Of a stretch of DNA of 31,547 nt, positions 11,316 through 31,179 are shown in pieces. The notes beneath the pieces were generated by a model that saw only the letters and a list, made by a program, of their open reading frames with translations, was not told the origin of the DNA and searched no databases. Numbering within the stretch: position 1 is the first letter of the stretch; the number at the start of each line of letters is the position of its first letter. The stretch lies in the IMG/VR virus record IMGVR_UViG_3300042474_001367, positions 1 through 31,547 of that record; one strand, 5' to 3'. Source of the stretch: a virus. Both the position numbers and the translations under genes were made by a program.

Positions 11316-11877
11316 ACTAAAGATCCGATCTCAACTTCCTCATGTTGAGAAGGGCGGCGTACTAGATGACTGCGGACCATCGTCTGCTGCATGCGCAACG
11401 TCGTGGGTTCTTGAAAAAGACATTACGGCAAAGCAGGGAATTGACGCGAAGGTCAAGGCAACTGGTCGTCCAGACAAGCCAGGAGTTGCAGATAATGCGA
11501 CATCAATGGCAGAAATAATTAAGATTGCTAAGGAGTTGGGGGCAAATGGTCGCTGGGCAAGAGACTGGGACGACGTTGTTAGTAGCCTTAAGAAAGGCGC
11601 TGCAATTGTCATCAACGTTCAGGCTGCAAGGTTCTACCCACCACAGGCAATCAGCGCATGGCACAAGCGGTTTGTTGGTCGGCACGCTGGTGCTACCTAT
11701 GGGCACATGGCTGCTGCGGTGTGGGATAAGGAGTTTGGATTTCAGTTTGCTGACCCGACTTTCTCAGGACTTAAGGCAGAGAAGTACGCAGTCACAGTGA
11801 CAGAAAAGGAACTAAAGGCAATTGCATCAAGCAAGGGGGATGCTCCGCACAGCCGATGCATCATCATCAAGGCGTGA
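11308..11877 (+). CDS. C39-like cysteine peptidase, 189 aa
   Basis: A papain-like peptidase core is visible. Cys22 lies in DDCGPSSAACA, the nucleophile motif of C39-type peptidases. His133 lies in YGHMAAAVW, and Asp149 in FQFADPTFSG completes the probable triad. There is no signal peptide, membrane segment or cell-wall-binding domain. I start at ATG 11308, which overlaps the chaperone stop by eight bases. Related domains in phages occur as the catalytic part of endolysins and in virion-associated enzymes, and C39 enzymes elsewhere cleave double-glycine leaders. Here the gene lies between tail and packaging genes, so it could be the lysin, a virion-borne wall peptidase or a processing protease. 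The sequence does not decide. Confidence 0.75.
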   Translation: MPKLKIRSQLPHVEKGGVLDDCGPSSAACATSWVLEKDITAKQGIDAKVKATGRPDKPGVADNATSMAEIIKIAKELGANGRWARDWDDVVSSLKKGAAIVINVQAARFYPPQAISAWHKRFVGRHAGATYGHMAAAVWDKEFGFQFADPTFSGLKAEKYAVTVTEKELKAIASSKGDAPHSRCIIIKA

Positions 11878-12350
11878 CTGAACTAGCCCCTGTATTGACC
11901 AACTGCTCTGCCTGCCGTAGCCCATTTGTTGAGGCGATCAACAAGAAGATGAAGGAAGGCGTTGCGGACGTAAAGATCAGCGAATGGCTCAAGGAGAACG
12001 GTGGCTACATCAGCCGAGTGAGTCTTGGGAAGCACAAGCGCGACCACCTTGTAGAGCGCCACGAAGCGGCTAGGATCGCCGCCAAGAAGGTCCTAGAGAA
12101 GCAGGCAAAGACGATCAAGGCAAAAGGCGACCTCGCCTCGCTAGTGGCAAATCAGGTGTATAATATGGTGGAAGACGGGGCACTGATGCCGACGCTGGCA
12201 GAGGGGCTTCGTGCTCAGGAAATGATTGATCGTCGGCAAGAGAAGGGCGCAGACCGAGATCTTACGATCATGCTGGCTCAGGTTCTGGGCGGTGCAATGA
12301 TTGTTGAAGGAACAGCGGAAGAAGTTGAACAGGAGCAGATTGATGCGTAA
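11874..12350 (+). CDS. Probable small terminase subunit, 158 aa
   Basis: The N-terminal region has C11-S-A-C14 and, after about 40 residues containing a helix-turn-helix-like segment (DVKISEWLKENGGYISRVSLGKH), H54-x3-H58, which together could bind zinc. The remainder is helical: a Lys/Ala-rich helix (68-85), then two more to residue 145, and an acidic tail. Small size, a DNA-binding-like N-terminus, a helical oligomerisation region and position upstream of the large terminase fit a small terminase, which recognises the packaging site. Sequence similarity to a known family was not recognised, and five genes intervene before the large subunit. GTG at 11874 forms a GTGA overlap. ATG at 11856 is an alternative. 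Confidence 0.55.
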   Translation: MTELAPVLTNCSACRSPFVEAINKKMKEGVADVKISEWLKENGGYISRVSLGKHKRDHLVERHEAARIAAKKVLEKQAKTIKAKGDLASLVANQVYNMVEDGALMPTLAEGLRAQEMIDRRQEKGADRDLTIMLAQVLGGAMIVEGTAEEVEQEQIDA

Positions 12351-12838: not shown

Positions 12839-13372
12839 ATGGCTGGAAAGAAGAAGTTCGCTCCACGCAAACTCAAGTCCCCGAAGCGAGAGGTCGGAGT
12901 CAATGCTGCCCTTCTTGCTGGCGGTGGTGCTGCGGGTACTGTAATCGGAGCAAAGATCGGTGGAGCACGTGGTCGTGCTGGTCTCCGAAGTCGTCTTGTT
13001 GATGCAACGCGTCAGGCAAAGTTTGCATATGACACCGATATGGGAGTTATTACATCGGGCAAGGATAAGGGCTGGTCACGAGCAGAAGTCAACAAGGCTG
13101 ATACTGCTGTAAGCCGACTTGCAACAAAGGAAGCAAAGCGATACAACTACAAGAGCCAATCATACAAGGGTATTGTTGGTTCAAATGCAGACATTAAGAG
13201 CGGTAGGTATCCTAACGCTAACGCTTTTGCACGGAAGAACACACGAGATGCAATGCGTGGCGCTGCATCAAGCCGTGGCGCACGACGTGGTGCCGCAGTC
13301 GGTGGTCTGAGTGGCGTTGCGTTGTCTGCGCTTGCGCAGGCTGTTGCGCGAGAACTTCGTAAGAAGCGATAA
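12839..13372 (+). CDS. Basic glycine-zipper protein with two hydrophobic segments, 177 aa
   Basis: After a Lys/Arg-rich start (residues 1-18) comes a hydrophobic glycine-zipper segment, VNAALLAGGGAAGTVIGAKI (21-40). The middle is basic and soluble-looking. Residues 150-170 form a second hydrophobic segment, GAAVGGLSGVALSALAQAVA, followed by RELRKKR. This final tail matches those of two other proteins in the window. The two segments with close GxxxG-type spacing could form a helical hairpin in a membrane. The gene begins two bases after the TGA of its neighbour, to which it may be distantly related in layout. Likely an internal or ejected virion protein (inference). No database family is recognised. 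Confidence 0.7.
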   Translation: MAGKKKFAPRKLKSPKREVGVNAALLAGGGAAGTVIGAKIGGARGRAGLRSRLVDATRQAKFAYDTDMGVITSGKDKGWSRAEVNKADTAVSRLATKEAKRYNYKSQSYKGIVGSNADIKSGRYPNANAFARKNTRDAMRGAASSRGARRGAAVGGLSGVALSALAQAVARELRKKR

Positions 13373-13383
13373 GGAGAAATCCA

Positions 13384-13785
13384 ATGACGGAGAGGGATAG
13401 GGTTCGTGATTACCTTGGAAGAATCAAGGACGACATGAACCTTCGGCAATGGACAATTAAGGTGTCAGATGATCTGCCCCCTGATGACTCTTGGGCTGAC
13501 GTTGAGGTAAGCCAGAATCTCTGGACTGCCACAGTACGGATCAGCAATGACTTCTTTAAGGAGTCGCCAGAGCATCAGAGGGAGATCTTGGCACATGAAC
13601 TTTCGCATGTTCACTATGGGTCTTTGGAGCGCCTCGTTGAGTCGCTTGATAAGATCTTGGGCGATCAAGCCTATAAAATCCTAGAGCACCTTTGGGATAT
13701 TGAATCGGAGCGCGCAGCGGACTCTATCGCAGTCCCTCTCGGTAGGTCCCTGCCGCTTCCTAACTTTAAGGGTGGGAAAAGATGA
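13384..13785 (+). CDS. Minimal HExxH zinc metallopeptidase, 133 aa
   Basis: Residues 69-77, LAHELSHVH, contain the zinc-binding HExxH signature with H71, E72 and H75. About 34 residues later ERAAD (E109-D113) supplies the third ligand and the helix typical of gluzincin-type enzymes such as the M48 group. The N-terminal 60 residues form a small beta region ending in an aromatic strand (LWTATVRIS) next to the active-site helix. At 133 residues it is near the minimum for such a fold, without a propeptide, signal or membrane segment, so it would act in the cytoplasm or the particle. ATG at 13384 follows AAGGAG. The substrate is unknown, with scaffold or another virion protein possible. Confidence 0.75.
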   Translation: MTERDRVRDYLGRIKDDMNLRQWTIKVSDDLPPDDSWADVEVSQNLWTATVRISNDFFKESPEHQREILAHELSHVHYGSLERLVESLDKILGDQAYKILEHLWDIESERAADSIAVPLGRSLPLPNFKGGKR

Positions 13786-13979
13786 GTGTACGAAAACTAG
13801 TTAACCCGATGAAGCAAGAAAAGAAGCCGCTTCAGAATATTGATAAGTGGAACCCTCCTACAAAGAAGGACCCTATTAAGATTCCACGTGCAACAATTAC
13901 TGACAACTATATTTCTGTCCCAGATCAGTACATCCCTGAGGAGCCACCTACGGTGAGAACTCGGAGGAAGAATGCCTAA
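13782..13979 (+). CDS. Small Pro/Lys-rich protein, 65 aa
   Basis: ATG at 13782 overlaps the metallopeptidase stop as ATGA, with GGTGGG upstream. The protein is rich in Pro, Lys and Asn (KKPLQNIDKWNPPTKKDPIK) and likely unstructured, with one beta-prone stretch TITDNYISVPDQYI and a basic end. No family or motif recognised. Tight overlaps on both sides support translation. It may be a partner or linker peptide of a virion protein, but nothing specific is visible. Confidence 0.6.
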   Translation: MSVRKLVNPMKQEKKPLQNIDKWNPPTKKDPIKIPRATITDNYISVPDQYIPEEPPTVRTRRKNA

Positions 13980-14337
13980 GTCTCCCGCATGGACACGGAA
14001 GGCTGGGCAAAATCCTAAGGGCGGGCTAAACGAGCGAGGTCGCGCCTCTCTTCGTGCCGCTGGTCATAACATCAAGAAAGGCGTAACTGGCGCTGCCAAC
14101 ACCCCAGAGAAGATGCGACGAAAGGGTTCTTTCCTTTCTCGCATGTTTGGACCTGGGGCACCTGGAGCAATGGTCGCGCCAAACGGAAAGCCGACGCGAC
14201 GAGCGCTGAGCGCAGCCGCTTGGGGAGAGCCAGTGCCAACAAGCGACGCGGCTAGGGCACGGCTATATAAGAAGGGACAGGCACTACTTGCCAAGTATAA
14301 AAACACCAAGTCAAAACCTACTAAGCGATCTTCATAG
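13972..14337 (+). CDS. DUF6321-like basic protein, 121 aa
   Basis: The pattern AWTRKAGQNPKGGLNERGRAS at the N-terminus, then SFLSRMFG and PGAMVAPNGKPTRRALSAAAWGE, matches the layout of a small protein family found in many phages, recorded to my knowledge as DUF6321. Its biochemical role is not established. The remainder is Lys/Arg-rich. It begins inside the end of the preceding gene (overlap of eight bases) and its last 50 bases overlap the start of the large terminase gene. Its place immediately before the terminase is compatible with a packaging or DNA-binding role, but this is inference. Confidence 0.7.
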   Translation: MPKSPAWTRKAGQNPKGGLNERGRASLRAAGHNIKKGVTGAANTPEKMRRKGSFLSRMFGPGAPGAMVAPNGKPTRRALSAAAWGEPVPTSDAARARLYKKGQALLAKYKNTKSKPTKRSS

Positions 14338-15793
14338 GGGTCGTACTGACCCTTCGTTCTTCGCAGAGCGTTTTCTTGGGGTACAGATGAATGCTGGACA
14401 AAAGGTCTGGGCTGCTGGCTGCTCCGAGCGCGGAGAAAATGGATGGTCCCCTAAGTACCTCACGACAGTTGTGTCTGCTGGTAACCGTGCTGGCAAGACG
14501 CTTGCAATGGCGCTTGTCATTTTCCATTCTGCGTTCTACAAACTAGGGGTTCGTCCTCCGAAGCCCAATGACCCTGAAGACGCTCTCCGTTGGATCAACG
14601 CCCCCTACGACTGGTATCATGTCGGTATCCAGCAGGAAACTGCTGAACTCGTATTTAGGGAAATTTCCCTGATTACTCAAGGCATCCACCCTGCTCAACA
14701 GCGTAGAGGCTGTCCGCTGTTTGCCGACATCGGTCCAGTCGCGAACCTTGACAAGAAGTATCGCGGGGAGTACCTTTGGGTACAATTCCACAAGGCTGTC
14801 GGGGGAGCCAACATCCATTTTAGAACGACGCAAGACAAGGCGAAGGCTCTCCTCGGAAAGGACATGCACGGGATCTCCTTTGACGAGGCTGCGTTTGACC
14901 CCTATCTTATGACCATCTACCAAGAGGTGCTCAACCTCCGCCGTCTCTCCACTGGCGGGCAATTGCACTTCATCTCCACCCCGACGGAAGGGATCAACGA
15001 TTACGCCGATCTCTGGGAATTGGGGAATCCCGATAACCCAAACAAAGATCCCCAGTTCCTCTCGTTCAGGATGTCTACCCGTGACAATATTGGCTTCGGC
15101 TTGTCCCAAGAGAACTTTGACAATATCATCCGACAGCAGGTAGAACATCTTGTCCCCCAGAATATTGACGGATTTTTCATTGAAGCCCGTAATGCGTACT
15201 TTTCCTCTGAAATGGTGGACCAAGCCTTTGATCCAGTCGTTGAACAAGAGTTACCTCCAATCAAGAAACACCGCTATGTCCAGGGCTGCGATCCTGGGAT
15301 TTCCTCCGATGCTACGTGGTCTGTTACCCTAGACTATACCGACAAACACAACATGTTGGGGGTACGGGCTAGGCGTAGGAGTGGTCGTCAGACTATAATG
15401 AACGTCGTGAATATGCTGCGAGAAACCCATCTGTTGTATAATCAGGGCAGTGCCTGTACTACGATCCTAGATAGCACTGGGTTTGGGGGTAAGATGTTTG
15501 CCCAAGAACTTAGTATTATTAAGCCTCTAAGACAGGTAGACTTTTCTGGTACTAAGGCTAAGAAACTTGAGATCCTATCTGATCTTAAGGCTGTTATAGA
15601 TAAAGGAATGATTAAGTTTCCTAGATCTGGGATCTGGTTGGAACTGAGGAGACAGTTGCTGGGATATAAACTTGATGATCGCAAGTTGGAAACGGATGCT
15701 GTAATGGCACTCGCCGTAGCCGTGCGATATGCAACGCGGTCGGCAAGCGAGGCTGTTGAAGATCCGCAGTTTAATTACTTTGGGGTGGTGTGA
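14288..15793 (+). CDS. terL: Large terminase subunit
   Basis: Motor of DNA packaging, acting at the portal. Residues 63-71 (SAGNRAGKT) are the Walker A loop. About residues 194-203 (HGISFDEAAF) hold the Walker B strand with catalytic Glu. The nuclease domain begins near residue 333 (GCDPGISSDAT, first metal Asp), with ILDSTGFGG near 391 and DAVMALAVAVRYA near 468 giving the other acidic residues. At about 501 aa it has the usual length. The start is TTG at 14288, with AAGAAGGGA about ten bases upstream. The first in-frame ATG (14387) would cut off the conserved FFAERFLG region. GC falls from about 57% in the ATPase half to about 46% in the nuclease half. Confidence 0.92.
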   Translation: MPSIKTPSQNLLSDLHRGRTDPSFFAERFLGVQMNAGQKVWAAGCSERGENGWSPKYLTTVVSAGNRAGKTLAMALVIFHSAFYKLGVRPPKPNDPEDALRWINAPYDWYHVGIQQETAELVFREISLITQGIHPAQQRRGCPLFADIGPVANLDKKYRGEYLWVQFHKAVGGANIHFRTTQDKAKALLGKDMHGISFDEAAFDPYLMTIYQEVLNLRRLSTGGQLHFISTPTEGINDYADLWELGNPDNPNKDPQFLSFRMSTRDNIGFGLSQENFDNIIRQQVEHLVPQNIDGFFIEARNAYFSSEMVDQAFDPVVEQELPPIKKHRYVQGCDPGISSDATWSVTLDYTDKHNMLGVRARRRSGRQTIMNVVNMLRETHLLYNQGSACTTILDSTGFGGKMFAQELSIIKPLRQVDFSGTKAKKLEILSDLKAVIDKGMIKFPRSGIWLELRRQLLGYKLDDRKLETDAVMALAVAVRYATRSASEAVEDPQFNYFGVV

Positions 15794-17865
15794 TGGCAAA
15801 GGCTAAGGGCGTACCAAGTCTAGTAGAAAATGGACGATCAGTTGCTGGTCAGGTAACCACTGACCCAAATGTTTTTGATACGGTACGAAGAGGCGCTGCT
15901 GGTACAAACGTAATCTCTAATGCAACAAAGAAGTACTTTGAAAGCAAACTGCCTCCTGCATACAAGGCAAGTTCCGAAGCACTAAAGAAGCGTGCTGCTC
16001 TTTCTGGGGACAACGACATGTATCGCGTGGCAGCAAAGTTTACAGAGATCCTTGAGCGGAAGTCCTCCAGTCAGTCAGAGGCTGACCGACGACGCGGCAT
16101 GTTCCGACGATTTGATAACTTGTTCCATGCAAACACAATGACTGTTGGTGGTGCGGATCACTGGGCTGACGATCCCAGCGCTCGGCTCGGTGGTCGCGCT
16201 CACGTCTCCGTCAACGCTCACGCTTCGTACGTTACAATCCCAGCATCGCTGCAGGCAGTGCGCCCAGTTATTAACTACGTCCCGACTGGAACCGAAAAAG
16301 AAGACCGATCAATTGCAGCCAACCGCGAGAAGTTGTTCTTCCGATGGTGGGAAGAGGCAGAGTTGGATCTTGTCATGGAAGACGCTGCGTTGTTTAAGAG
16401 TCTTTACGGAGACACCGCTGCAAAGATCTATTGGGATCCAGTCCGCAAGTTGCCAAAGGTTCACGTCATCTCATCGCCAGAAAACCTTTACCTTGGCTAC
16501 GGCGTAAGCGACTACACGCGACTAGACTGGGCGCTTTATACATACGGGATCTCGCCACTTGCTGCTGCAGAAGAGTTCGGTGTTGATGTAATCCCAGCGA
16601 AGGAAGGCGATATCTTCTATCCATACGTTACTAAGGGGACGCATGACGATCCTCTTGGCACTTTGTACCGCGACTCGTTTGAGCGTAACTTCATGCGACG
16701 GCAGACTGACTACGAGCGACTTCAAGTTGAAGTCTATGACTATTGGTACAAGGAGCCACAGGGCAAGGGCAAGGCTCCTCTTGTTAAGAACTGCGTTTAC
16801 GTTGGCACGCAACTTATTAGCGAAACCGAACATCCAGAATACGACGGGGAGATCCCGTACGTAATCCTGACCAACAGCCGAATTCCTGGCAGCCCATACG
16901 GGAAGCCAGAACTTTACGATGTTGAGCAACTCCTCCGCGAGAAGGACGAGCGCATCACGAATCAGGCGCAGTTTATTCATCAGGTCGTTGGTGGTCAGAT
17001 GTTCCAGTTGATTGGACAGGATGCCCCAGAGGAAGTCCCTGCCAATGCTATTCCAAAGCCAGGTCGTATTGCAAGCCCAGGTGCTGGCAATCGCATTGAG
17101 CCAATTCAGCCGTTTATCCCACAGATGCAGATTGAAGACTATAACCGCCGACTTGATCGCGAGTTGACTGTTATCTCTGGTCTTAACGATCTACTCCTTG
17201 GCGTTGCCCCGTCGGGCGTTCTTGGATCTAGCCGAGCAATTGCTTCACTTATTGCAAACTACGAGCAGCGCATTGCGCCAAAGCGAAAGTTGTTCTATCA
17301 GTGGCTTAAGAATGTTTGGCGACTTTCATGCAAGGTATGGGAGAATAAGAGCGACGAGGTTAAGATTATCTTTGACGGTCAGTACCGCATTGAAATTACT
17401 CCACCAGAGTTGACCCCTCGCGATACACTTGAACTTGCAAGCACTGCAATTAACCTTGTGCAAAATCGCATCTGGTCGGCAGAGCGCGCAATGGATCGCG
17501 TGGGCGTGGAAGATCCTCAGGGCGAGAAGGATATTATCCGCGACGAACAGACAGATGCTACAATCAATCCTGCTGCAGTTGCAACAATGGCTCAGGTCAT
17601 TGCTCAGTTCCAGCAGATGGGTGTCACCCCTCCACAGGGAGCGCAGCAACAGGGTCAGGCTGGCATGGAGTCAGCAATGAACGCTATGCGAACGCAGAAC
17701 CCGTCGCAGCAATTGATTGAGGGACAAAACGATGAAGACCTAAATGCTCAGGGTATGGCTGAGGCTCAGCCGTCCAATGCTGCTGGGTTTGCGGAAAGCC
17801 CAGAGCAGTTGGCTCTGATGGAGCAGCAGGCGCAGCAAGCGCCTATGGGAGGCTTGAATGGCTGA
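15793..17865 (+). CDS. Portal protein, 690 aa
   Basis: Dodecameric ring at the capsid vertex through which DNA passes. The central region has portal-like features: FRRFDNLFHANTM, a wing rich in beta strands, then a long segment with IPGSPYGKPELYDVEQLLREK (about residues 356-376). A tunnel/clip-like region with LNDLLLGVAPSGVLGSSRAIASL follows near 465-485. The last 90 residues are Gln/Met/Ala-rich and disordered (QQQGQAG, EQQAQQAP), an extension often seen in portals. It directly follows the large terminase with a TGATG junction. I use ATG 15793, although GTG 15790 is also in frame. Position, size and pattern agree. No single signature residue proves it. Confidence 0.85.
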   Translation: MAKAKGVPSLVENGRSVAGQVTTDPNVFDTVRRGAAGTNVISNATKKYFESKLPPAYKASSEALKKRAALSGDNDMYRVAAKFTEILERKSSSQSEADRRRGMFRRFDNLFHANTMTVGGADHWADDPSARLGGRAHVSVNAHASYVTIPASLQAVRPVINYVPTGTEKEDRSIAANREKLFFRWWEEAELDLVMEDAALFKSLYGDTAAKIYWDPVRKLPKVHVISSPENLYLGYGVSDYTRLDWALYTYGISPLAAAEEFGVDVIPAKEGDIFYPYVTKGTHDDPLGTLYRDSFERNFMRRQTDYERLQVEVYDYWYKEPQGKGKAPLVKNCVYVGTQLISETEHPEYDGEIPYVILTNSRIPGSPYGKPELYDVEQLLREKDERITNQAQFIHQVVGGQMFQLIGQDAPEEVPANAIPKPGRIASPGAGNRIEPIQPFIPQMQIEDYNRRLDRELTVISGLNDLLLGVAPSGVLGSSRAIASLIANYEQRIAPKRKLFYQWLKNVWRLSCKVWENKSDEVKIIFDGQYRIEITPPELTPRDTLELASTAINLVQNRIWSAERAMDRVGVEDPQGEKDIIRDEQTDATINPAAVATMAQVIAQFQQMGVTPPQGAQQQGQAGMESAMNAMRTQNPSQQLIEGQNDEDLNAQGMAEAQPSNAAGFAESPEQLALMEQQAQQAPMGGLNG

Positions 17866-20596
17866 AATCTACGGATCTTTTGGTCGCGTAATTACTGGTA
17901 ATACTCTTGGCAGTAGCGTCGCCTCGCTTGCCCGTCAGATCCTTAACGACAAGATTAGCCGAATCTTCAATGCGTACCGAGACGAGGTTCAGTACGAAGG
18001 ATCCCTTCTTGATGCTGGAAGTGCTATCTCTAAACTTACAGAGATGCTTGGTCTTGTACAGGCAGGTAGTGAGGCGGAGAAGGACATCAAGGAATACATT
18101 GATGCAATCCGACAAGAGGACCGAAAGCGCCGCGCGAACAAGGCAATCAATAAGGTTGATCTTGCTGGTGCAGAAAACAAAGACTACCCAGAACTAATCA
18201 AGGCAATCAAGGGGATCCTTGCAGACCCAACAATTACAGAGACTGAAAAGGAAGCGTACAAGGCTGCCCTTGCAAATCAGACTCGTAACTACATTAACAA
18301 CATTATGCGACAGTTTAATGATGGCGGTAGCGTAACGGTTGACGGCAAGACTGTTGACTTCGGTATGTCTGCAAATCATTCTCAATTGACGAGCATTATT
18401 GGCGGACTGATGACAGACAATCCAGATATGCGTATGGAGATCGGAAAGGCGTTTGATCAGTCGCGAGCAATGGTTATGCTCAAGGCAGCAGAGTTTGCCT
18501 TTGCCGAAAACAAAGACATTAGCAACAACGGTCGTGCGGCTGCCTATGAAAAGTTGAAGAAGTCCACGCAGGAGGCATATGACCTACTTGCAAAGTCTGA
18601 GTTTGACCTTGCAAATAGTGGAGTTGCCCTTGACCTATTGAAGGACATTACAAAGTACTCGGAAAACATTCAGGACTATAAGGATGCTGCTGCTAGCGAG
18701 TACGCACGAGACTACGTAAACAAGGGAAACGCCAAGGCTACGTCGTACTTTGATGCCGTAGATAAGTTTGCTACTCAGGTTCTTGGTAACGCAAAGGATG
18801 CAATTACTGGAGGAACATCACTAGCCAATCTCGTACTCTCTGGAGACATTGATGCCGTATACCGATATCTAGACGCAGTTGCCGCAAACAACAAGGGGAA
18901 TACTGGATTCACTATTGATGGTAAGTCGTACTCAATTTCTCGCGATGCGTTCTTTGACGGCATCCGAACTACTCGCAAGATCTTTAATGCCCTTGACGAC
19001 TTCTCAAGCGGGAACAAGAATGTGCACCCAGATGACCAGACGTATTTCTCTGAGGCTGCTGGACGGTACAACGTGTTTATCCAAGGTAAGGAAATCTTTA
19101 CTATTGAAGATAAGTACGACGCTGCACGGGATACAATGATCAAGAACATCCGATCCTCTGGTGGCGACATCTATAAGATCCGAGAAGCATACATTAAGTT
19201 TGGTCAGGTCCTTAGCGGTCTTGCTTCAACCTATGGTCCGAACTCGCTTGTCTATGATGAACTAATGACTGAATCAAGGCTGTACGTTAGCGGAGACGTT
19301 GGCAAGGGAGATCAGTTGACCTACGGAGTTGTTAGCGGTAACTTTGACCTAGGCACGGAGAAGTATGAAGACTATCTTGCCGAGCCACTTAGCGCTCACG
19401 ACATTGCCGCAAATACCCGAAGAGACCTTCTTGAGACGTTTGTTGACTTTGACGGTGACAAAATTACAATCCCAAGGAACTTGGGTCCAGACTCTGTTCT
19501 ATCGTACGAGGGCGTAAAGTTTGCACGACCTTCTTGGGCTGCGGACGGGATTAAGGTCAAGGGTCTTACTGGTCCAAATGAAGTCCATCAGATTATTCCG
19601 ATCCAAGATAGCCTTGGCAAGGAGAAGGGTTGGCTCTCATTTGTTAATGGTAAGTTCATTGGCGGAACGCGATCAAATGGTAAGTACACTTTTTACAACT
19701 CGTCGGATATTACAAGAAACCTTGCGTCGCTTGGTATTACCAGTCCCTCCGACATGGAACTTCTCTTTACCGATTCAGGCATGGTATCCAACGTTAACAT
19801 TGCAATTCTTGGATCAAAGCGAGAGTTGACCCTTGACCAAATGGAAGTCCGAAATGGGACATGGGAAGACAGGGTTACTGGTGTTCAGGGAGAAAACGCT
19901 GGTATTACTCCAAACAAAGATGAGTTTGATACATATATTAAGGATCTTATTGACAAGAAGCAAATTAAACTTCTTCCTCCTGCGCCTTCCTATGCTCAGC
20001 AGAAGACTGAAGATCGCATCCTTATTAAGGACGATCAGGGTAACTGGGTTGCCGCAACCGCACTCCTTGACGATAGTGTTGTTGAGCAGATCATGGATCG
20101 CTTGCCGATGATCACCACGCCTCCAGGAACAGACGGTGACTTTGGTGGAACGACCCGAATCCCAGGTCTTGGCGGGTTTGGAATGGGCAAGGGCGGGACA
20201 GGCACAAAGCCTGCCCTCACTCCAGAGCAGCAAGAGGCGGAGTACATGCGACGCGGGCAAATGCCAAGTGGCGGAACTAGGAGCACAACTCTGCCAACTC
20301 CTCCTAGAGTTGATCCAAACAGGGATCTTGGATATGGTGAGCAGGTTCCGATTACTCCGCCAGGCGGTCCATCCACTGGAATTTCTCCAGTGACGGGAAC
20401 AACTCCAGTAACTGGTCCTTCGCCTATTACGCGCCCTGGTCCAATTAAAACAACGACTGCAATCAAGCCTATTGCCAGCCTGACAAGTCAGGCAATGGTT
20501 GACTTTAGGGCTGGAGAGCGACAGTCACTTACTAGCACTAAGTCTACCGCCGTAGGTGGATTCTTTAGGAACTCGCCATTTAAGATTTCGCTGTAA
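17858..20596 (+). CDS. Large virion protein of unknown role, 912 aa
   Basis: ATG at 17858 after GGGAGG, overlapping the portal stop. Residues 1-330 are helical with many Ala, Asp and Lys repeats. Residues 330-680 mix helices with beta segments (GFTIDGKSYSISRDAFFDG, KGWLSFVNGKFIGGTRSNGK). Residues 760-880 are a Pro/Thr/Gly-rich low-complexity linker (PVTGTTPVTGPSP), and the last 25 residues end in VGGFFRNSPFKISL. No enzyme motif or known domain recognised. Its place between portal and scaffold, as in podophages that encode internal proteins near the portal, suggests an internal core or ejection protein (inference). It could instead be a decoration or neck protein. Confidence 0.7.
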   Translation: MAEIYGSFGRVITGNTLGSSVASLARQILNDKISRIFNAYRDEVQYEGSLLDAGSAISKLTEMLGLVQAGSEAEKDIKEYIDAIRQEDRKRRANKAINKVDLAGAENKDYPELIKAIKGILADPTITETEKEAYKAALANQTRNYINNIMRQFNDGGSVTVDGKTVDFGMSANHSQLTSIIGGLMTDNPDMRMEIGKAFDQSRAMVMLKAAEFAFAENKDISNNGRAAAYEKLKKSTQEAYDLLAKSEFDLANSGVALDLLKDITKYSENIQDYKDAAASEYARDYVNKGNAKATSYFDAVDKFATQVLGNAKDAITGGTSLANLVLSGDIDAVYRYLDAVAANNKGNTGFTIDGKSYSISRDAFFDGIRTTRKIFNALDDFSSGNKNVHPDDQTYFSEAAGRYNVFIQGKEIFTIEDKYDAARDTMIKNIRSSGGDIYKIREAYIKFGQVLSGLASTYGPNSLVYDELMTESRLYVSGDVGKGDQLTYGVVSGNFDLGTEKYEDYLAEPLSAHDIAANTRRDLLETFVDFDGDKITIPRNLGPDSVLSYEGVKFARPSWAADGIKVKGLTGPNEVHQIIPIQDSLGKEKGWLSFVNGKFIGGTRSNGKYTFYNSSDITRNLASLGITSPSDMELLFTDSGMVSNVNIAILGSKRELTLDQMEVRNGTWEDRVTGVQGENAGITPNKDEFDTYIKDLIDKKQIKLLPPAPSYAQQKTEDRILIKDDQGNWVAATALLDDSVVEQIMDRLPMITTPPGTDGDFGGTTRIPGLGGFGMGKGGTGTKPALTPEQQEAEYMRRGQMPSGGTRSTTLPTPPRVDPNRDLGYGEQVPITPPGGPSTGISPVTGTTPVTGPSPITRPGPIKTTTAIKPIASLTSQAMVDFRAGERQSLTSTKSTAVGGFFRNSPFKISL

Positions 20597-23500
20597 TGGT
20601 TGATTGGATTGGAGTACCGCCAGAAGACGAGCCGTATAAGCCGTTTTCTGATGGAGGTAGCAATGATTCTTCGGGTTCTCAGTCTACTTACCAAAAGCGT
20701 CGTATCGGCGTTGACATCGTTGGTGGAGCGCCTGCTTCTCAGGAACCAGTTGACGATGTATTTGATATTCCTCGCGCTGGGATGGAGTTTGTTGGTGGCG
20801 CTGCTGGCGGTCTATTCTATGGAATTGATACTCTTAACCGACTAGCCCACGAAGAAGTTGCCAAGTTGCGCATTAAGAATGCGATGGCGTTTGGCGATCC
20901 CAAGATGGCACAGAAGTATCTTGACATGGTTGGCAAGTACGACATGTCTATTGACGAGGTTGCATCGGAGATGTATAAGGATGGCGTTGCCGTAACTGGT
21001 GGCGTTCCTCACGACCTTATGCTTTCCATCTTTGCAGACCCACTCAATGTAGTCGCTCCCGTGGTCGGCGGAACCTACCAGAGGGCAAAGAAGTCCGCTG
21101 GATTCCTAGACGAGATGGGTGACGAGACAAAGCGCGACATCATGGGGCGAGTTAAGGCTCGCACCCCAATGACACCAGACGATGAGAAGTTTATGAGCAG
21201 CCGAATGAATCAGGCGCTTGGTCGTGCATATAGCAGGGTCAGTAGGGGAAGCGGTGGCTTTGTAAAGGCTCTTGGTCAACTTGTGCTTGGTCGTGCATCT
21301 TCTGCAATCATCACTGCTCTTGGCGTAAACACCATGCGGAAGGTTGCTCAGTATGCCGACAATGCTGGAGTTGCCGATCTATTTGACGATTCTGTTTCTA
21401 TTGCGGCTGCCCATGTTAGCCGAGGCGCAGCGGCAAACCATGTTGTCAACAACTCTGTAATCCGAAACACCTCAGCGGTGGAGGGGAGGATTCAGGCGGT
21501 TGAGCGTGCTACGTCGCTATCCGACGATGCCGCCCGCGCAGAGTTTAAGAACGCAACAAATCTTGACGAGCGATCCTCCATCCTTACGGACGAAGAGATC
21601 AACTCACAGTTTGACGAACTCTTTAACATCAAGCAGGAGCGCATGCGCGCAGGCAAGGGTTCAGACTGGGCAGAGCGAGTCCGCCGTGGTCTTGTTGATA
21701 CTGCAGTAGAGGGCGACCTTGGCGAGCAGATTGGCAAGGGCGGCGTGCTTAATGTCCTAGATGAGGCTATCGTAAGCAGCAGGCAGTCTGTTGACCGAGA
21801 GGTCGCGCTTGTGTTTACCCGTGAATCTGCCGACGCGCTCCTCATTGCAGCGAAGGGACCTGCTGCGGCGAAAGAGCACTTCATCTCCAAGATGGAGTTT
21901 ATGCTGTCGCGCGACGAGGCTGCCAATCTGTTTGACGAACTAGTGATGGACGCTTCTAAAGTATCTGATCAGAACAAGGCACTGGTTCAAGCGGTTAATA
22001 CTGCAAACTTCCTACACCTTGGGTATGCTGCGCGAACTCTTGCTGGCAATATGCGAGAACTTAAGGCGCTGTCTGAAACCCCATCGTTCCTCAAGAATAT
22101 TGACCAGAAGATCCGCCCACTCATTAGGACGCAGATGGGACGCATGAGTATTGTCAGCGCCCGAACAATGACAAAGCAGGATCGCAAGCAGATCCTTGCG
22201 CGACTTGAATCTGCAGAAACGTTTGAGCAAAAGCAGGAGATCGTTCGCGAGGCTATTGAGAACTTTGACAATGCAGCGGCTGAGTTCCAAGCCCTTGGCG
22301 ACGCGTCCAAGACCGTCATCAATGAGGACACGGTTGCCGTCTTCGCAAAGAAGATTGACCAACTTACTGATCTTCCAGATGAGATCCCAGTGTCATTTAC
22401 TAACGCGCTTGCTGACGTTCCTGCCTACACAAACTTCCTATCCGACGCTGCACGGCTGGGGTACAAGATCATCCTTGAGCCAGAGGGGGTAGTGACAAAG
22501 CCTAAGATTGACATTACAGAGTTTGGGTCCCGTGCTGCCGTACGACCAAAGTCCTCGCTCTGGGTTCCGATTACTGATGACGGGATGGACGTTGTGTTTG
22601 GCAACCGTACAAAACTTGGCAAGTTTGTTGACTACAACTTCGGGGACCGCTCAACAATTAAAATTATGCAGAACACGCTAGACCGAATGTATGAGTACGC
22701 AGCAACACGACTGAAGAGTCCTATGTCACGTGCGGTAATCCGTGACCTCCATAGGGAGTTGATGGACGAAGCGTTCAAGACACGAGGGTCTTTGCGCACA
22801 GTCAGCATGGCGCTGTCTGGCGAAGGCGATGGATCTATTGTCAATGTTATGCAGCGGCTTGAAGACAGGATTGCCCAGCAGGGACCACAGGCACTACAAG
22901 AGTTTAGGGCAATGGTTAAGAATGGGGACTTTGAGGACATGATCTTCTACGCCGCAAAGGGTGACGTTGCCGTAACTGGTGTTGCGTCGCAGATCAGCGG
23001 TGGCTTTAAGATTGCTCTTCGCAAGTCGCCCGTGCTTCGTGGTGCTGTCGGAAAGTACATTGTAGAGTGGGCAGACAAGTGGTACCCAATGTTCAAGTTT
23101 ACAAAGAACCCAATCTTTCAACTTGCAGAAATTGTAGAGTCTAAGTTCTTCAATGGTCTGCGCGGGATTATGCCAGAGTGGAAGATCCCATTCACTGGTC
23201 GTCGTTTCGGGACAAAGCGGTACTACGATGTCATGGACCCTATGACCAATAAGATGCAGCGGCTTGACTCCGTAAAGATTATTCAAGACTTGGCTGCCGC
23301 CGAACGACCAGAGTTGCAGTTCGCTCAGGACATGGCTGCCCTCAATGCATACTTTGGGTACAGCACAACGCAGGCATTGCTTACCGTAGGCGAGGCGGGA
23401 TCAGAGTTTGTTAAGAACATGGAGAAGTCCCGATCATGGTGGGCTGGTCTTGTGGAGGGTGCGGCAACCAGCAAGGCAACTGACTTCTGGCGTATGACCG

Positions 23501-24963
23501 CAGATCAGAACCTTTCGGCTATGGCTGAGTCACTCCCTCGCATGATGCAGAAGTCTGCACCAGCGCAATGGGACGTATGGCTGCAGTCCGCTGGCGGCGA
23601 CCCGCGCGGCGCTGCCCTCCTTTTCCTGCATCAGGCACACTCGCTTCGCACGAGCCGATCTGCAGCGCGAGCGTTCATGAACCGACACAAGCCGCTTGGT
23701 CTTGGGTTTGGTCGCCAGTTTGATGACGACCCTATTAAGAACCTGAACACGGCGCTACGAGATGCGAACCGACAAGTGCGGGCAACAAGCCATAGCGCAG
23801 CAGCAAGGACGCTGGCAGACAACCTTGCTGACGTGCACGCTGGTGCTGCCGCTGTCGGGTATAACCAAGAGGCGCTAGATGGAATTACTAAGGCTATTGC
23901 CATCCTACGAAAGACAAGTCCAAATCCTCGCTCTGCAGCCAAGTCGTATCAGAATGCGCTTAACGAGTTGGGCGTTGCTAGCGGCAAGATGGAGATTGAG
24001 TTTACCGCAGCAGTCAAGCGCAAGCAACTTGTGCGCGACTCTCTAATTTCTAATGGCATCCCTCGCCCAATGGCGACGGAGATGGCGGCGCTATACGTCG
24101 TAGCCCAGCGACGTGGCGAGATGATCCCAGAGGTTGCAATGCAAGTTGAGCGAGCACTTGCTGGCAAGGTAGTCATGTCTGCCGAAGATATCAACAAGTT
24201 GTCCAACCACCTGCAGGCTATCCGTGAGGCACGCACTGGAGAAGAGACCGTATGGAATACAATCATGGACGGCATTGACGCGCAAATCCGACACGAGTCA
24301 ATCCCTGTGCATTTCTACAACACGAACCGATCATTCTTTGAGCGCACGTTTAACCACGTGTTCTTCTCGCTGTACCCTACGTCGTACATGTTTGGCAAGG
24401 TACTGCCAGAGTACATGCGACTTCTGTACGCTACGCGAACCAAGTCCCTTGCGGGGCTAGTCCTTGAACCGTACGAGCGGGTTCTGCGCCTTGCGTCTGG
24501 CGGCAACTTTAGCCTGAAGGCGTGGAGCGACTTTGCTCCGCTTGTTGGGTTCTCTGCTGCATACAAGATCCGACAGGCAATGCTTCGCGAGATGTCAGAA
24601 GGCGACCCTACAGAGTACGACCCACTGATGTTCTTCCTTACGCAAACGCTTATCCCTGGACTCCCAACCGACATTACTGTCGGTGTCAACGTTGCACCGC
24701 TTGCAGCAGTTGAGCAGTTTGGGAATACATTAGAAGAAACAGGAAGTGTCCCACAGGCACTTCTTGAAGGAGCAACCAAGGGTGTCGGAACGGCAGCCCT
24801 TGCGATGAAGAGAGTTGGCTTGCCACAGGCGGCTACCGTTGTGGGTAGCATTGCAAATACGCTTGCCAACCCTGAAGATCAAGACCTGTCTCCAGTAGAA
24901 AACATTCAAATGTTTATTGAGACAAGGATTGATGATATAGGAAAGTTCCTACGTAATGAGTAG
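20596..24963 (+). CDS. Giant probable internal or ejection protein, 1455 aa
   Basis: The longest gene here, starting in a TAATG overlap with the previous stop. The protein is mostly helical with Ala, Asp and Arg, and scattered hydrophobic patches: GAAGGLFYGIDTL (about 69-81), SIFADPLNVVAPVVGG (144-159), QLVLGRASSAIITALGV (228-244) and a membrane-compatible stretch near 1240-1260 (HVFFSLYPTSYMF). The C-terminal 200 residues include GVNVAPLAAVEQ and GTAALAMKRVG. No lytic transglycosylase, peptidase or transferase motif could be found by eye. Length and helical character are like podophage internal core proteins ejected into the cell. A tape measure is less likely because it sits before the scaffold and capsid. 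Codon use matches its neighbours. Confidence 0.7.
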   Translation: MVDWIGVPPEDEPYKPFSDGGSNDSSGSQSTYQKRRIGVDIVGGAPASQEPVDDVFDIPRAGMEFVGGAAGGLFYGIDTLNRLAHEEVAKLRIKNAMAFGDPKMAQKYLDMVGKYDMSIDEVASEMYKDGVAVTGGVPHDLMLSIFADPLNVVAPVVGGTYQRAKKSAGFLDEMGDETKRDIMGRVKARTPMTPDDEKFMSSRMNQALGRAYSRVSRGSGGFVKALGQLVLGRASSAIITALGVNTMRKVAQYADNAGVADLFDDSVSIAAAHVSRGAAANHVVNNSVIRNTSAVEGRIQAVERATSLSDDAARAEFKNATNLDERSSILTDEEINSQFDELFNIKQERMRAGKGSDWAERVRRGLVDTAVEGDLGEQIGKGGVLNVLDEAIVSSRQSVDREVALVFTRESADALLIAAKGPAAAKEHFISKMEFMLSRDEAANLFDELVMDASKVSDQNKALVQAVNTANFLHLGYAARTLAGNMRELKALSETPSFLKNIDQKIRPLIRTQMGRMSIVSARTMTKQDRKQILARLESAETFEQKQEIVREAIENFDNAAAEFQALGDASKTVINEDTVAVFAKKIDQLTDLPDEIPVSFTNALADVPAYTNFLSDAARLGYKIILEPEGVVTKPKIDITEFGSRAAVRPKSSLWVPITDDGMDVVFGNRTKLGKFVDYNFGDRSTIKIMQNTLDRMYEYAATRLKSPMSRAVIRDLHRELMDEAFKTRGSLRTVSMALSGEGDGSIVNVMQRLEDRIAQQGPQALQEFRAMVKNGDFEDMIFYAAKGDVAVTGVASQISGGFKIALRKSPVLRGAVGKYIVEWADKWYPMFKFTKNPIFQLAEIVESKFFNGLRGIMPEWKIPFTGRRFGTKRYYDVMDPMTNKMQRLDSVKIIQDLAAAERPELQFAQDMAALNAYFGYSTTQALLTVGEAGSEFVKNMEKSRSWWAGLVEGAATSKATDFWRMTADQNLSAMAESLPRMMQKSAPAQWDVWLQSAGGDPRGAALLFLHQAHSLRTSRSAARAFMNRHKPLGLGFGRQFDDDPIKNLNTALRDANRQVRATSHSAAARTLADNLADVHAGAAAVGYNQEALDGITKAIAILRKTSPNPRSAAKSYQNALNELGVASGKMEIEFTAAVKRKQLVRDSLISNGIPRPMATEMAALYVVAQRRGEMIPEVAMQVERALAGKVVMSAEDINKLSNHLQAIREARTGEETVWNTIMDGIDAQIRHESIPVHFYNTNRSFFERTFNHVFFSLYPTSYMFGKVLPEYMRLLYATRTKSLAGLVLEPYERVLRLASGGNFSLKAWSDFAPLVGFSAAYKIRQAMLREMSEGDPTEYDPLMFFLTQTLIPGLPTDITVGVNVAPLAAVEQFGNTLEETGSVPQALLEGATKGVGTAALAMKRVGLPQAATVVGSIANTLANPEDQDLSPVENIQMFIETRIDDIGKFLRNE

Positions 24964-24985
24964 GATGGTACAATAGGAGGAAGCA

Positions 24986-25540
24986 ATGGCTGAAACCGAA
25001 GTCGTGAACACGCCACCGCAGGAGTCGCCTGCACCTGAGGCTGTAGAGCCACAGGTAGCGACCACTCCAGCAGAAGATGATGTCACCACTTGGAAGAAGC
25101 GGCTGGCTGGGAAAGATCAGGCGCTAACATCTGCGAAGGCAGAACTTGAGTCTATCCGTAAGGAGGCTGAAGAACTAAAACGCTGGAAGGCTGAGAATGA
25201 GAATGCGAACTTGTCCGAGTTCCAAAAGTCTCAGAATCGTCTTGTTGCGCTTGAGGCAGAACTTAACGAGGCACGGGAGGCTGCTAAAAACGAGCGGCTG
25301 AAGAGTGCCTACCCGAACTACGCTCAGTTCTTGGCTGACACTGCAGGTCTTTCGGATGAAGCGCGAGCCGCTTCGTTTGAGAAGTACATGGCAGATCTCA
25401 GAAAGGAACAGGCTAAGGAAGGGACGGACACATTTGTTGAACCGAATAATCCTAGGAAGTCTAGCGGTAATGGAAGCGGGAAGCGTTCCCAGTCCGACAT
25501 TATTGCAGATATGGAGAAACTCGGTAATCCGTTCATCTAG
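24986..25540 (+). CDS. Scaffolding protein, 184 aa
   Basis: Placed immediately before the major capsid gene, as scaffolds usually are. Residues 1-30 are Pro/Glu-rich and disordered. Residues 35-105 form a continuous charged coiled coil (KDQALTSAKAELESIRKEAEEL, continuing with LVALEAELNEAREA). Residues 106-140 are helical, and the C-terminus is Ser/Gly/Lys-rich followed by a short helix (SQSDIIADMEKLGNPFI), which is the part that usually binds the capsid protein. ATG at 24986 follows AGGAGG closely. The scaffold shapes the procapsid and leaves before DNA packaging. The assignment rests on position and coiled-coil character. Confidence 0.85.
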   Translation: MAETEVVNTPPQESPAPEAVEPQVATTPAEDDVTTWKKRLAGKDQALTSAKAELESIRKEAEELKRWKAENENANLSEFQKSQNRLVALEAELNEAREAAKNERLKSAYPNYAQFLADTAGLSDEARAASFEKYMADLRKEQAKEGTDTFVEPNNPRKSSGNGSGKRSQSDIIADMEKLGNPFI

Positions 25541-25559
25541 TTAGTCTAAGGAGAATATC

Positions 25560-26507
25560 ATGGCTATTACTAGTACGTCAACGACGGGGTTTTCTGATCT
25601 AGTTCAGGAACTCGTCCTCGCTAAGGCGCAGGAAGAACTGCGCGGGCGACTCGTGCACGTGATGCCAGGTCACTACGTTCCTGGGCGTTTTGTGAAGGGT
25701 ACTAACACCATTCGCTTCGCTCGCTACGCAGACCTCGGCGCGGACACGACTCCGCTCAATGAAGGTGAATCACCTGTTGATCAGGCGCTCAGCATCGGCT
25801 CGGATTACTTTACTGCTACGCAGTACGGTAAGACGATTGCCGTGACTGACCTTGCTCAGTTGGACTCACCTCACGACCTCATCTCAATCGCCTCGGAGCG
25901 CATTGCGCGACAGGCTGCTGAGACGATGGATCTTGTTGTTAAGGATGTTCTTGCCGCAGGCACGAACGTCAAGTACGCAGGCGATGCAACTTCCCGCGCA
26001 ACTGTTGCGCAGGGCGATGTCATCACGGGCGCTCTCGTGAAGAAGATGGCGGCAAGCCTCAAGGCTGCCAACGTCCCAACCTTTGCGGACGGCTTCTACC
26101 GCTGCGTTATCCACCCGTTCCAGGAGTACGATCTGATTACGGATACGACTGCTAACGGCTGGATTGAATCCACCAAGTACGTGGACAACCTCCCGCTTCT
26201 GAACGGCGAGATCGGGCGCTTTGCTGGCGTTCGCTTCCTCGTTTCGTCCAATGCGAAGGTGTTCGCAGAGGCTGGTGCTGATGACGCAGATGTCTACAGC
26301 GCTCACTTCTTCGGTCCAGATTCGTACACGGTTGGCGATTCGCAGACCCTTCAGGCGTACTTCGTGTCGCCTGGTGGCGATCACAGTGACCCGCTTGCGC
26401 AGCGCGCAATCGCTGGTTACAAGATGCGCTTCGGCGCGAAGTTGCTTGACCTCACGGGTGCACGCTACGTGCGCCTTGAGACGGGCGCGACGCTCAGCGG
26501 CGAGTAA
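25560..26507 (+). CDS. Major capsid protein, N4-gp56-like (HK97 fold), 315 aa
   Basis: The main shell protein. The pattern resembles the N4 gp56 capsid family: GTNTIRFARYADLGADTTPL then EGESP, QYGKTIAVTDLAQL (about residues 86-99) and ARQAAETMDLVVKDVLAAGTNV (about 115-135), followed by a beta-rich domain with RFLVSSNAKVF and a closing KLLDLTGARYVRLE. Length is ordinary for the family. ATG at 25560 follows AAGGAGA. GC is about 58-60% in the blocks counted, clearly above neighbouring genes, with strong use of C-ending codons, as expected of the most highly expressed gene. A GC hairpin follows at 26519-26546. No maturation cleavage site can be inferred. Confidence 0.9.
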   Translation: MAITSTSTTGFSDLVQELVLAKAQEELRGRLVHVMPGHYVPGRFVKGTNTIRFARYADLGADTTPLNEGESPVDQALSIGSDYFTATQYGKTIAVTDLAQLDSPHDLISIASERIARQAAETMDLVVKDVLAAGTNVKYAGDATSRATVAQGDVITGALVKKMAASLKAANVPTFADGFYRCVIHPFQEYDLITDTTANGWIESTKYVDNLPLLNGEIGRFAGVRFLVSSNAKVFAEAGADDADVYSAHFFGPDSYTVGDSQTLQAYFVSPGGDHSDPLAQRAIAGYKMRFGAKLLDLTGARYVRLETGATLSGE

Positions 26508-26564: not shown

Positions 26565-27248
26565 ATGGCAACACGAGCAACAATCAGAACAGAAATCCGA
26601 AGGGATCTACGAGATCCAGACGCAAAGACTTGGAGCAATGATGAGATCAATGATCTTATTAACTCTGGCATTGATGCTATCTCCGACCTCTCAGCACTTG
26701 AAACAGTAGAATCCTTTGAGGCGGTGTTCCCGTCTCTGTCTGGATCAAACATGGGCAAGAGCCTTGAGTTCACGCCCAACACCATCTTTAGCAATATCTT
26801 CAGGGTAGATGTCCTTGACTCAAACCTTCGGTTCTATGAAACCCTTCCTATTAGCACGGGGCATGGATGGGGCAACGGCTGGCAGTGGTTTGCTGGCAAA
26901 CTCCATATCCCAGCAGGGTATTCTTACCCAACCTTTGACCTCGTTGTAGGCGAGGATGTCTATGAGCGAGTTAACTTGAAGATCTGGGGATACAAGCGAT
27001 ACACACTACTTAATGACGACAGTACTAACTCAGACCTTACCGATCAACTTAAAAATGCAGTAAAGATCTACGTGCAGGCTGAGGCGCTGCAGCGCTTGAT
27101 GGTTGACCGTGCCGACTTCCAGCAGTGGCAGATTGCTTCTGGCTCAAGCGACATGACTATCAGCGAACTCTCTGTCCTTGCTTCATCCGCTCGTACCCGA
27201 TGGCGCTCCGAACAGCAGCGCATCCGAAGGATGAGGCAACTTGGATGA
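26565..27248 (+). CDS. Head-tail adaptor protein, 227 aa
   Basis: Directly after the capsid gene. The N-terminus TRATIRTEIRRDLRDPD then KTWSNDEINDLINSGIDAIS is the typical helical start of phage head-completion or adaptor proteins, with conserved W-x-x-x-E-I-x-x-x-I-N. The middle is beta-rich with many aromatics (WGNGWQWFAGKLHIPAGYSYP) and the C-terminus returns to helices, ending very basic (RWRSEQQRIRRMRQLG). Such proteins form a ring below the portal and link it to the tail. ATG at 26565 follows AGGAGG and the gene ends in an ATGA overlap with the next. Subtype (gp6-like or tail-tubular-A-like) cannot be decided by eye. Confidence 0.7.
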   Translation: MATRATIRTEIRRDLRDPDAKTWSNDEINDLINSGIDAISDLSALETVESFEAVFPSLSGSNMGKSLEFTPNTIFSNIFRVDVLDSNLRFYETLPISTGHGWGNGWQWFAGKLHIPAGYSYPTFDLVVGEDVYERVNLKIWGYKRYTLLNDDSTNSDLTDQLKNAVKIYVQAEALQRLMVDRADFQQWQIASGSSDMTISELSVLASSARTRWRSEQQRIRRMRQLG

Positions 27249-28258
27249 TTGATCTAACACAGCCTATCTATTGGGAGCAGCCTAACGGAGTATTTATTAA
27301 TCTTAATGATCTAACAAATAACTCTACCTTCTCTCCCACTCAACCAATCTCTGGCTACCGCGTAAAGAGTATTTCCTTCGGTGCCGCTAACCCAATCGGA
27401 TACGAAGATCCTCGCGCAACCCGTGACGGCGTTGACGTAGCGGATGCATACATTGGGCGAAGGTTGCTGCAAATTCAATTGGATCTGTACGGTGCTACTC
27501 GTCAGGATCTTGCAGGTAGACTTGAGACCATTGTCAAGATGATGCGATTTGTTCCTAAGAGGTTCCAAGCAAGCGATGGGTTTAGGCGATTCAAGTTTAC
27601 AATGATTACTAATGACACGACCAATTTCCCTACGGGAAGGATTGAGGCATACTCTGTCTGCCGACCAGCGCAGATGCCACAGATTGAAACCAATCCGATG
27701 ATGTTTAGCGGTAGCGACAGCGCTGGGTATAGCACGGGGGTTATCCTTGCGTTTGTCATGAAGTCACCGTACAAGTTCTCTGACACCTTGAAGAACGGGG
27801 GCATCACGCTGGGTGGTTCTGCTGTCACGCTTCACAATCACGGGACGGCACCATCGTACGCGGAACTAGTTATTGCCAAGATCACTACTGCGACTCCATC
27901 AAAGAACGCAGCGCTTGTCAAGTTTACGATAACACTTAATGGAACTCCTCTTGTGCTATCAATTCCCGCCAACACAATTGGAGACGATGCAACCTACGAG
28001 TACAAGATTCTTATTAACTACGATGAGCAAATTGTTTACGATTCTAGAATTACAAAAGACGGAGGCGCTGCGCTAAATACAATTAACCAGAAATACATTA
28101 TCGTAAACTCTGGCGCTCTGTTTGGTCTTATTGATCCAGACGATGATCATTACGGTGGTACCCCGTCCACTGTTTCCGTAAGCGCTGTGGACGGATCAAA
28201 CAATCCTATTACGACGGGCTATAGCGCCACTATTTCGTGGAGGGAGGCGTGGTATTAA
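27245..28258 (+). CDS. Distal-tail-like (Dit-like) protein, 337 aa
   Basis: The N-terminal domain pattern (VFINLNDLTN, PISGYRVKSISFG, then GRRLLQIQLDLYGATRQDLAGRLE and MMRFVPKRF) resembles the ring-forming domain of distal tail proteins, which join the tail tube to the baseplate. The remaining ~180 residues are a beta-sandwich region (SYAELVIAKI, ALVKFTITLNG). The start is ATG at 27245, overlapping the preceding stop as ATGA. An in-frame extension upstream to 27125 lies inside the adaptor gene and is rejected. The following gene also resembles a tail-tip protein, which supports the call. No tail tube gene lies nearby, which is unusual for a Dit gene. Confidence 0.65.
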   Translation: MIDLTQPIYWEQPNGVFINLNDLTNNSTFSPTQPISGYRVKSISFGAANPIGYEDPRATRDGVDVADAYIGRRLLQIQLDLYGATRQDLAGRLETIVKMMRFVPKRFQASDGFRRFKFTMITNDTTNFPTGRIEAYSVCRPAQMPQIETNPMMFSGSDSAGYSTGVILAFVMKSPYKFSDTLKNGGITLGGSAVTLHNHGTAPSYAELVIAKITTATPSKNAALVKFTITLNGTPLVLSIPANTIGDDATYEYKILINYDEQIVYDSRITKDGGAALNTINQKYIIVNSGALFGLIDPDDDHYGGTPSTVSVSAVDGSNNPITTGYSATISWREAWY

Positions 28259-30925: not shown

Positions 30926-31179
30926 CCAAGAGCAATGTGTCTGCGATTGTGGAGGCTATTATGGAACTACGTGCTGAACTACGCGAGGACCTCAAGGAAA
31001 TGTCGGAGCGTCTTACCAAGATTGACGAGCGGTTGCGTGAAGTTGAAGTAGCGCAAGCCATTGCGCGGGAGGTAAAGATTGAAGCCGATCTCTCAGGGAA
31101 GTGGAAGGCTGGCATTGCGACCAGTATCGCAGCGGCAGTTGCCGCACTTCTACAAGCGCTTGCGCAAAAGGGAAACTAA
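30922..31179 (+). CDS. Holin-like membrane protein with coiled coil, 85 aa
   Basis: Residues 8-50 form a charged coiled coil (AIMELRAELREDLKEMSER). Residues 62-80 are a hydrophobic helix (AGIATSIAAAVAALLQALA) ending in a short polar tail (QKGN). This layout, a cytoplasmic coiled coil plus one C-terminal membrane helix, is that of XhlA-type hemolysin/holin partners. ATG at 30922 overlaps the tail gene stop as ATGA, with no clear ribosome site, so it is probably coupled. It could alternatively be a tail-end membrane protein. A second holin-type gene converges from the right, and a pair of such proteins is common in lysis modules. Confidence 0.6.
   Translation: MTKSNVSAIVEAIMELRAELREDLKEMSERLTKIDERLREVEVAQAIAREVKIEADLSGKWKAGIATSIAAAVAALLQALAQKGN

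Follow-up and report, generated by a model that had tools for sequence, protein, structure and literature searches.

How does a phage tail work if its genes specify the tip of a long tail and seemingly no tube? This question is raised by IMG/VR record IMGVR_UViG_3300042474_001367, a stretch of 31,547 bases (hereafter the window) that belongs to an uncultured bacterial virus, probably a short-tailed one. The record is linear and has no end repeats, and it is probably only a part of the virus genome. A single operon on the plus strand (3428-31179) holds the portal, scaffold, capsid, and adaptor genes that the initial annotation had listed, all at the sizes given there, and the coordinates bear out its placement of two giant proteins of 912 and 1455 amino acids (aa; giant 1 and giant 2) between portal and scaffold (Table 1). 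The adaptor, Dit-like, and Gp37-like genes, which it had put within 12839-26507, actually lie beyond that interval at 26565-30925. Of the two explanations offered at the time, a short-tailed phage with a Dit/Gp37-like tip is best supported by gene order, the Dit fold, and relatives without a recognizable tube, whereas tube genes outside the window are unlikely in view of five relatives with overlapping ends and a core-gene table, in neither of which a tube is recognizable.

Quite probably, this virus is a short-tailed phage whose tail amounts to a siphophage-type tip (adaptor, Dit ring, and hub) seated directly on the neck and whose giant proteins are ejected. In such a particle, the portal ring and SU10-type adaptor would be followed by a Dit ring and then by a trimeric hub that seals the channel, and tube, terminator, and tape measure would all be absent. 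A clade-specific extension of the hub together with a collagen-repeat fiber would touch the host. Packaged in the head, the 912- and 1455-aa proteins would exit with the DNA and form a channel across the envelope, and in some relatives they would bring an ADP-ribosyltransferase into the cell. Compared with T7, Dit and hub would stand in for the nozzle and the giants for the inner core. The rings would presumably comprise six Dit and three hub subunits as in siphophages; a review on adsorption to Gram-positive bacteria (PMC9863714) describes a hexameric Dit and a trimeric Tal that closes the channel.

Searches with the capsid, terminase, and giant proteins retrieved many uncultured viral contigs. 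They confirm the gene set and place it in a large lineage of uncultured phages with genomes of ca. 40 to 43 kb. Among 84 capsid-anchored loci that we labeled with family profiles, 80 show, as far as their contigs reach, the order portal, (giant 1), giant 2, scaffold, capsid, adaptor, Dit, hub, and the remaining four (L027 to L030, with capsid identities of 25% to 29%) carry the capsid label only. The operon is not a chance arrangement, because the same operon is conserved in these relatives. An adaptor was labeled in 65 loci and Dit in 59 of these; the contig of L018 (G009), the only one of the other six that was inspected, stops right past the adaptor. Where adaptor, Dit, and hub are all labeled, the gap between adaptor and Dit is at most 3 nt (50 of 50 loci) and no more than 1 nt separates Dit from hub in 48 of the 50, and a single open reading frame of 793 to 1018 aa fills the interval from portal to giant 2 in 44 of the 46 loci with both genes. 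One subclade (G008, G022, G023, G024, G025, and G026) has an extra gene of 415 to 445 aa between capsid and adaptor; the G023 copy (L226 14070-15329) looks glycosyltransferase-like by eye and gave no sequence match in the PDB.

In siphophages, the tube and tape-measure genes are located between neck and Dit. No tape-measure gene is present there in the 50 loci in which adaptor and Dit adjoin, and the earlier statement that the operon lacks a tube gene agrees with our scans, in which no window protein significantly matched a tube or tape-measure family; the best scores were E 0.055 for the tape-measure family phrog_2335 and E 0.23 for the major-tail family phrog_584. The phrog_2335 match of a 462-aa protein was discounted as a sign of a tape measure, since the family of this protein was seen only in the window and in relative G002. 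Genome searches found the tape-measure family PF10145 in none of 12 records and the tube families PF06199 and PF16461 in none of 11 records each. PHROG scans of 56 protein entries of the relatives G006 and G002 that were unlabeled by profiles (10 + 10 + 36; entry L124:19596-20000 is a protein piece only) returned replication, nucleotide-metabolism, holin, and unknown families and no recognized tube, with a single tail-labeled match in one of the 36 proteins (phrog_7565, “minor tail protein”, E 0.009). Conservation is the stronger argument against a tube, since one would expect a tube gene in the core, and our table of the 20 families shared by 5 or more of 9 records offers no fitting candidate among its late families. 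These comprise terminase, portal, giant 2, scaffold, capsid, adaptor, Dit, a C39-like peptidase, the collagen-type fiber, a small holin-like protein, a DUF6321 protein, a small-terminase-like protein of 150 to 170 aa, and a metallopeptidase-like protein with a HELSH motif; hub and giant 1 diverge too much to appear in this table and were tracked with profiles.

For the two giants, the best interpretation is that of internal proteins that would be ejected into the host, because some relatives of giant 2 carry an enzyme domain within a giant of the head gene cluster, as expected of an ejected protein; T4 Alt and the virion RNA polymerase of N4 are examples of enzymes that phages eject into their hosts. 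Members of the 1455-aa family occur in 20 of the 22 records that were examined (the window is one of them), with lengths of 1157 to 3021 aa among members of at least 1000 aa, some of which are cut by contig ends. An ADP-ribosyltransferase domain (PF03496) scored over its cut-off in L202 and L211 (two of three scanned) and in L206; in the scan with L206, 3 of 37 giant proteins (22 of giant 2 and 15 of giant 1) matched it at E <= 0.001. The carriers are 2847 to 3021 aa long (L202 842-9385, L211 289-9354, and L206 793-9378), and the domain retains an ExE motif. This ADP-ribosyltransferase of giant 2 relatives likely acts as an injected enzyme of host takeover. The window's own 1455-aa protein gave no ADP-ribosyltransferase match in the Pfam scan, the giant of L183 showed a GNAT-like match below the cut-off, and profile searches of the PDB with both giants returned nothing convincing. 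The description of both proteins as helical finds weak support in the 1455-aa protein and none in the 912-aa protein (mean helix propensity of 1.05 and 1.00, respectively).

A tailed phage, its tube diverged beyond recognition and giant 2 serving as a tape measure encoded upstream of the capsid, is an unlikely alternative that draws on the several operon proteins without family match and on the tape-measure-like, widely varying length of the 1455-aa family. However, a tube would be expected in the core, where none of the late genes fits, and the enzyme domains would suit a cargo rather than a ruler. The location before the scaffold is also unlike that of a tape measure, and position and enzyme domains together lead us to disfavor the 1455-aa protein in this role.

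Regarding the tip itself, the gene that follows the adaptor is shown by predicted fold and family profile to encode a Dit, in line with its earlier description as Dit-like, and we assign it by fold and not by a Pfam model. An AlphaFold2 model from a 15-member alignment (predicted local distance difference test [pLDDT] 74.6, predicted template modeling score 0.70) consists of a tube-like N domain and a galectin-like C domain, and the best ten rows of a Foldseek search against the PDB are all tip entries of phages or tailocins, headed by SPP1 Dit (E 1.5e-9). VIA-align superimposed the model on a Douge baseplate chain (Z 15.1, root-mean-square deviation [rmsd] 4.1, 250 residues) and on SPP1 Dit (Z 14.9, rmsd 3.7, 225 residues), with both domains covered. 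Independently of the model, a PDB search with the sequence profile of the family also had SPP1 Dit (2x8k) as its best match (E 3.5e-4). In a viral structure library, the top row was an uncultured phage's tail protein (40% identity); next came tail proteins from cultured phages, many of which have names of siphophages or actinophages. The Dit family PF05709 was matched in 10 of 24 records, each time within the Dit gene, and the window Dit itself had no match in hmmscan.

The next gene likely encodes a hub/Tal-type protein, as suggested by weak family matches and by its predicted structure. PF14594 matches the hub gene in 8 of 24 records including the window, and PF06605 does so in 3 of 24, always in the hub gene; the hub-family models found nothing in the window's Gp37-like protein by hmmscan. 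The conserved core spans ca. residues 370-888. The structure model of the protein is of low confidence, and Foldseek ranked hub or tail-tip entries from Chi, JBD30, a gene transfer agent, PhiTE, phiCD508, and P1 highest, with the Bxb1 tail tip (9d93_Oa; Z 11.4, rmsd 3.5, 184 residues) as the best VIA match. A separate stretch of ca. 80 residues with an E1_FCCH match resembles ubiquitin-activating-enzyme and endosialidase chains and thus accounts for the unrelated rows in these structure searches. A first iterative search with the Gp37-like protein had drifted into the capsid family (39 rows, the lower ones mostly capsids), and the family profile was rebuilt from alignment A5 (residues 370 to the end) with rows of <500 aa dropped. 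The E1-FCCH-like domain lies at hub residues 559-623 (window 29933-30128), and 49 of its residues are 59% identical to a stretch that the record of a Microbacterium phage annotates as major tail protein. Residues 1-369 (window 28259-29365) form a clade-specific extension with a weak Ig-like match (PF25788) that is absent from many relatives and is possibly a receptor-binding part.

Could these 2 proteins instead be podophage nozzle or knob proteins that have merely the fold in common with Dit and hub, comparable to phi29-type knobs, which share tube-like domains? Podophage knobs do hold tube-related beta-sandwich domains according to excerpts of two reports (PMC9710869 and PMC11476376), and Foldseek weakly matched the Dit model to the portal-tail complex of a podophage (8i4m_A, E 0.023). 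However, the match to SPP1 Dit covers both domains including the galectin-like one, the profile search leads to the same SPP1 protein, and a hub-like gene comes next in siphophage order, so that we regard this reading as highly unlikely.

Overlapping ends were detected in 5 of 14 long records tested, namely G002 (440 bp, 98.6% identical), G005 (140 bp), G006 and G007 (123 bp each, exact), and G026 (156 bp), and these five are putatively complete; the other nine had none. We give very little credence to an ordinary siphophage with its tube, terminator, and tape-measure genes beyond the 31.5 kb window, as might be proposed for a linear fragment whose Dit and hub have their structure matches among isolates mostly in long-tailed phages, because adaptor and Dit touch or overlap in all 50 loci exactly where these genes would lie, the five relatives with overlapping ends have no recognized tube, and PF10145 was found in none of 12 records.

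Several observations weigh against a short tail with a Dit-hub tip and ejected giants. The short tail of the lineage is deduced from its genes. Failure to detect a tube is not proof, as a tube too divergent for PHROGs would escape, and the six-frame genome search has limited sensitivity (PF24175 missed the window's own adaptor, which hmmscan found). The completeness of the five relatives is based on their end overlaps, and IMG/VR classes all of them as linear. For Dit, the curated cut-off of PF05709 was not reached in any record (best 16.6 bits versus 24.2). The same is true for the hub with PF14594 (18.7 versus 26.2 bits) and PF06605 (21.7 versus 31.3 bits), so the product is not filed as a member of either Pfam family; the hub model is poor (pLDDT 48.5), so single hub matches are weak. 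With regard to the giants, neither contains a strongly hydrophobic segment (19-residue stretches >1.6 on the Kyte-Doolittle scale), and membrane insertion is therefore unsupported by this test. Comparison of the giants to T7 gp15 and gp16 by hhalign, which is insensitive, found no direct ejection homologue.

Isolated phages offer partial parallels. Among 50,697 phage records, terminase and portal had no isolate match at E <= 1e-5 and the 1455-aa protein none at E 0.01; only the capsid has distant kin (73 records, every one below 60% identity), and those inspected include Streptomyces podophages, a Bacillus Pagevirus, a Paenibacillus phage, and a Stenotrophomonas phage that encodes a putative virion RNA polymerase. 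Eight named records with the same capsid family had no Dit or hub match by profile, and a host search with capsid and terminase in a genome collection of 84,980 species found no relative. The Beephvirinae (Zeigle and Abafar) share a related N4-gp56 capsid (hhalign probability 99.3) and a giant gene between portal and capsid, but their terminase and portal do not match and they have no Dit or hub profile match. Abafar has a short tail of 16 nm by electron microscopy (PMC11536984). Bacillus phage Pascal (Pagevirus) has a related capsid (hhalign probability 99.9), and its record annotates a podovirus-type head-to-tail joining protein, but its largest gene comes after the tail genes and neither Dit nor hub is matched. 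Single-sequence hhalign against proteins of Zeigle, Pascal, and T7 found the capsids alone and missed the portals too, so its negatives carry little weight.

The internal core of T7 (gp14-gp16) consists of large internal virion proteins that, according to excerpts of the adsorption review, leave the head and extend the tail upon binding, with the nozzle following the adaptor (PMC9863714), but the T7 core genes come after the nozzle gene and have no detectable homology to the giants. Knobs of the phi29 type (phi29 gp9 and Andhra gp12) are podophage tail ends with a tube-related domain in the excerpts cited above, yet they are one protein and not Dit plus hub. The tips of SPP1 (gp19.1, 2x8k), Douge, and Bxb1 have the two-domain fold with a hub-type gene directly after Dit, but in the window Dit directly follows the adaptor without recognizable tube, terminator, or tape measure.

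What is new is that a siphophage tip is combined with a head and an ejection layout that resemble those of podophages; no report of a podophage with Dit was found among the titles and abstracts returned by searches of the open-licence PMC literature. On balance, we lean toward a widespread uncultured lineage with a further kind of short tail, in which a siphophage Dit-hub tip sits directly on the head adaptor and is served by a giant ejected pair that can carry effector enzymes. Such a tail would have arisen by loss of all but the tip of a long tail, or else it would resemble the ancestral form from which long tails came. Excerpts of the adsorption review state that podoviruses have no baseplate, unlike siphoviruses and myoviruses (PMC9863714). 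If true, Dit and hub on the neck would break this division, show the minimum needed for a working Dit-hub tip, bear on the kinship of short and long tails, and constitute an unusual DNA-injection device with the tip machinery of long-tailed phages mounted straight on the head.

Table 1. Genes of the late operon in the window, with the basis of each assignment.
Feature	Coordinates	Strand	Basis
Collagen-repeat tail fiber	6882..9998	+	PF01391 E 5.9e-20
164-aa conserved protein, putatively small-terminase-like	11856..12350	+	by eye; 8/9 records
Metallopeptidase-like protein with HELSH	13384..13785	+	weak phrog_87 E 0.01; 8/9 records
Large terminase subunit	14288..15793	+	phrog_2 E 8.2e-16
Portal protein	15790..17865	+	phrog_64 E 1.9e-9
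Giant protein 1, 912 aa	17858..20596	+	no family match; proposed internal/ejection protein
Giant protein 2, 1455 aa	20596..24963	+	no significant family match; proposed internal/ejection protein
Scaffold	24986..25540	+	position and family conservation (20/22 records)
Major capsid protein, N4-gp56 type	25560..26507	+	phrog_1357 E 6.6e-54; PF13252 and PF25209 over cut-off
Head-tail adaptor, SU10 type	26565..27248	+	PF24175 E 2.6e-5
Dit (distal tail protein)	27200..28258	+	ATG at 27200; predicted fold and family profile
Hub/Tal-type protein (likely)	28259..30925	+	PF14594 match at 29495-29659; low-confidence model
Small protein at end of operon, holin-like by position	30922..31179	+	phrog_1193 E 5.9e-5

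Regarding the other genes of the operon, the capsid scores above the curated cut-offs of its families (PF13252, 42.1 bits versus 23; PF25209, 36.9 versus 27), the adaptor slightly below that of PF24175 (25.2 bits versus 27), and the scaffold gene had no family over the curated cut-off in PHROG and Pfam scans. In a terminase alignment of 14 members, the relatives are 64% to 89% identical. Upstream of the terminase, G006 encodes a protein of the 2425 to 2585 aa size class (L123 10165-17442) without Pfam or PHROG match; similar proteins are found in G005 and G007, and G004 has an open reading frame of 2533 aa. Directly upstream of the late operon, positions 2401-3300 of the window reach 61% to 71% GC in a record of 51% GC and contain CG-rich imperfect repeats, a possible origin or control region.

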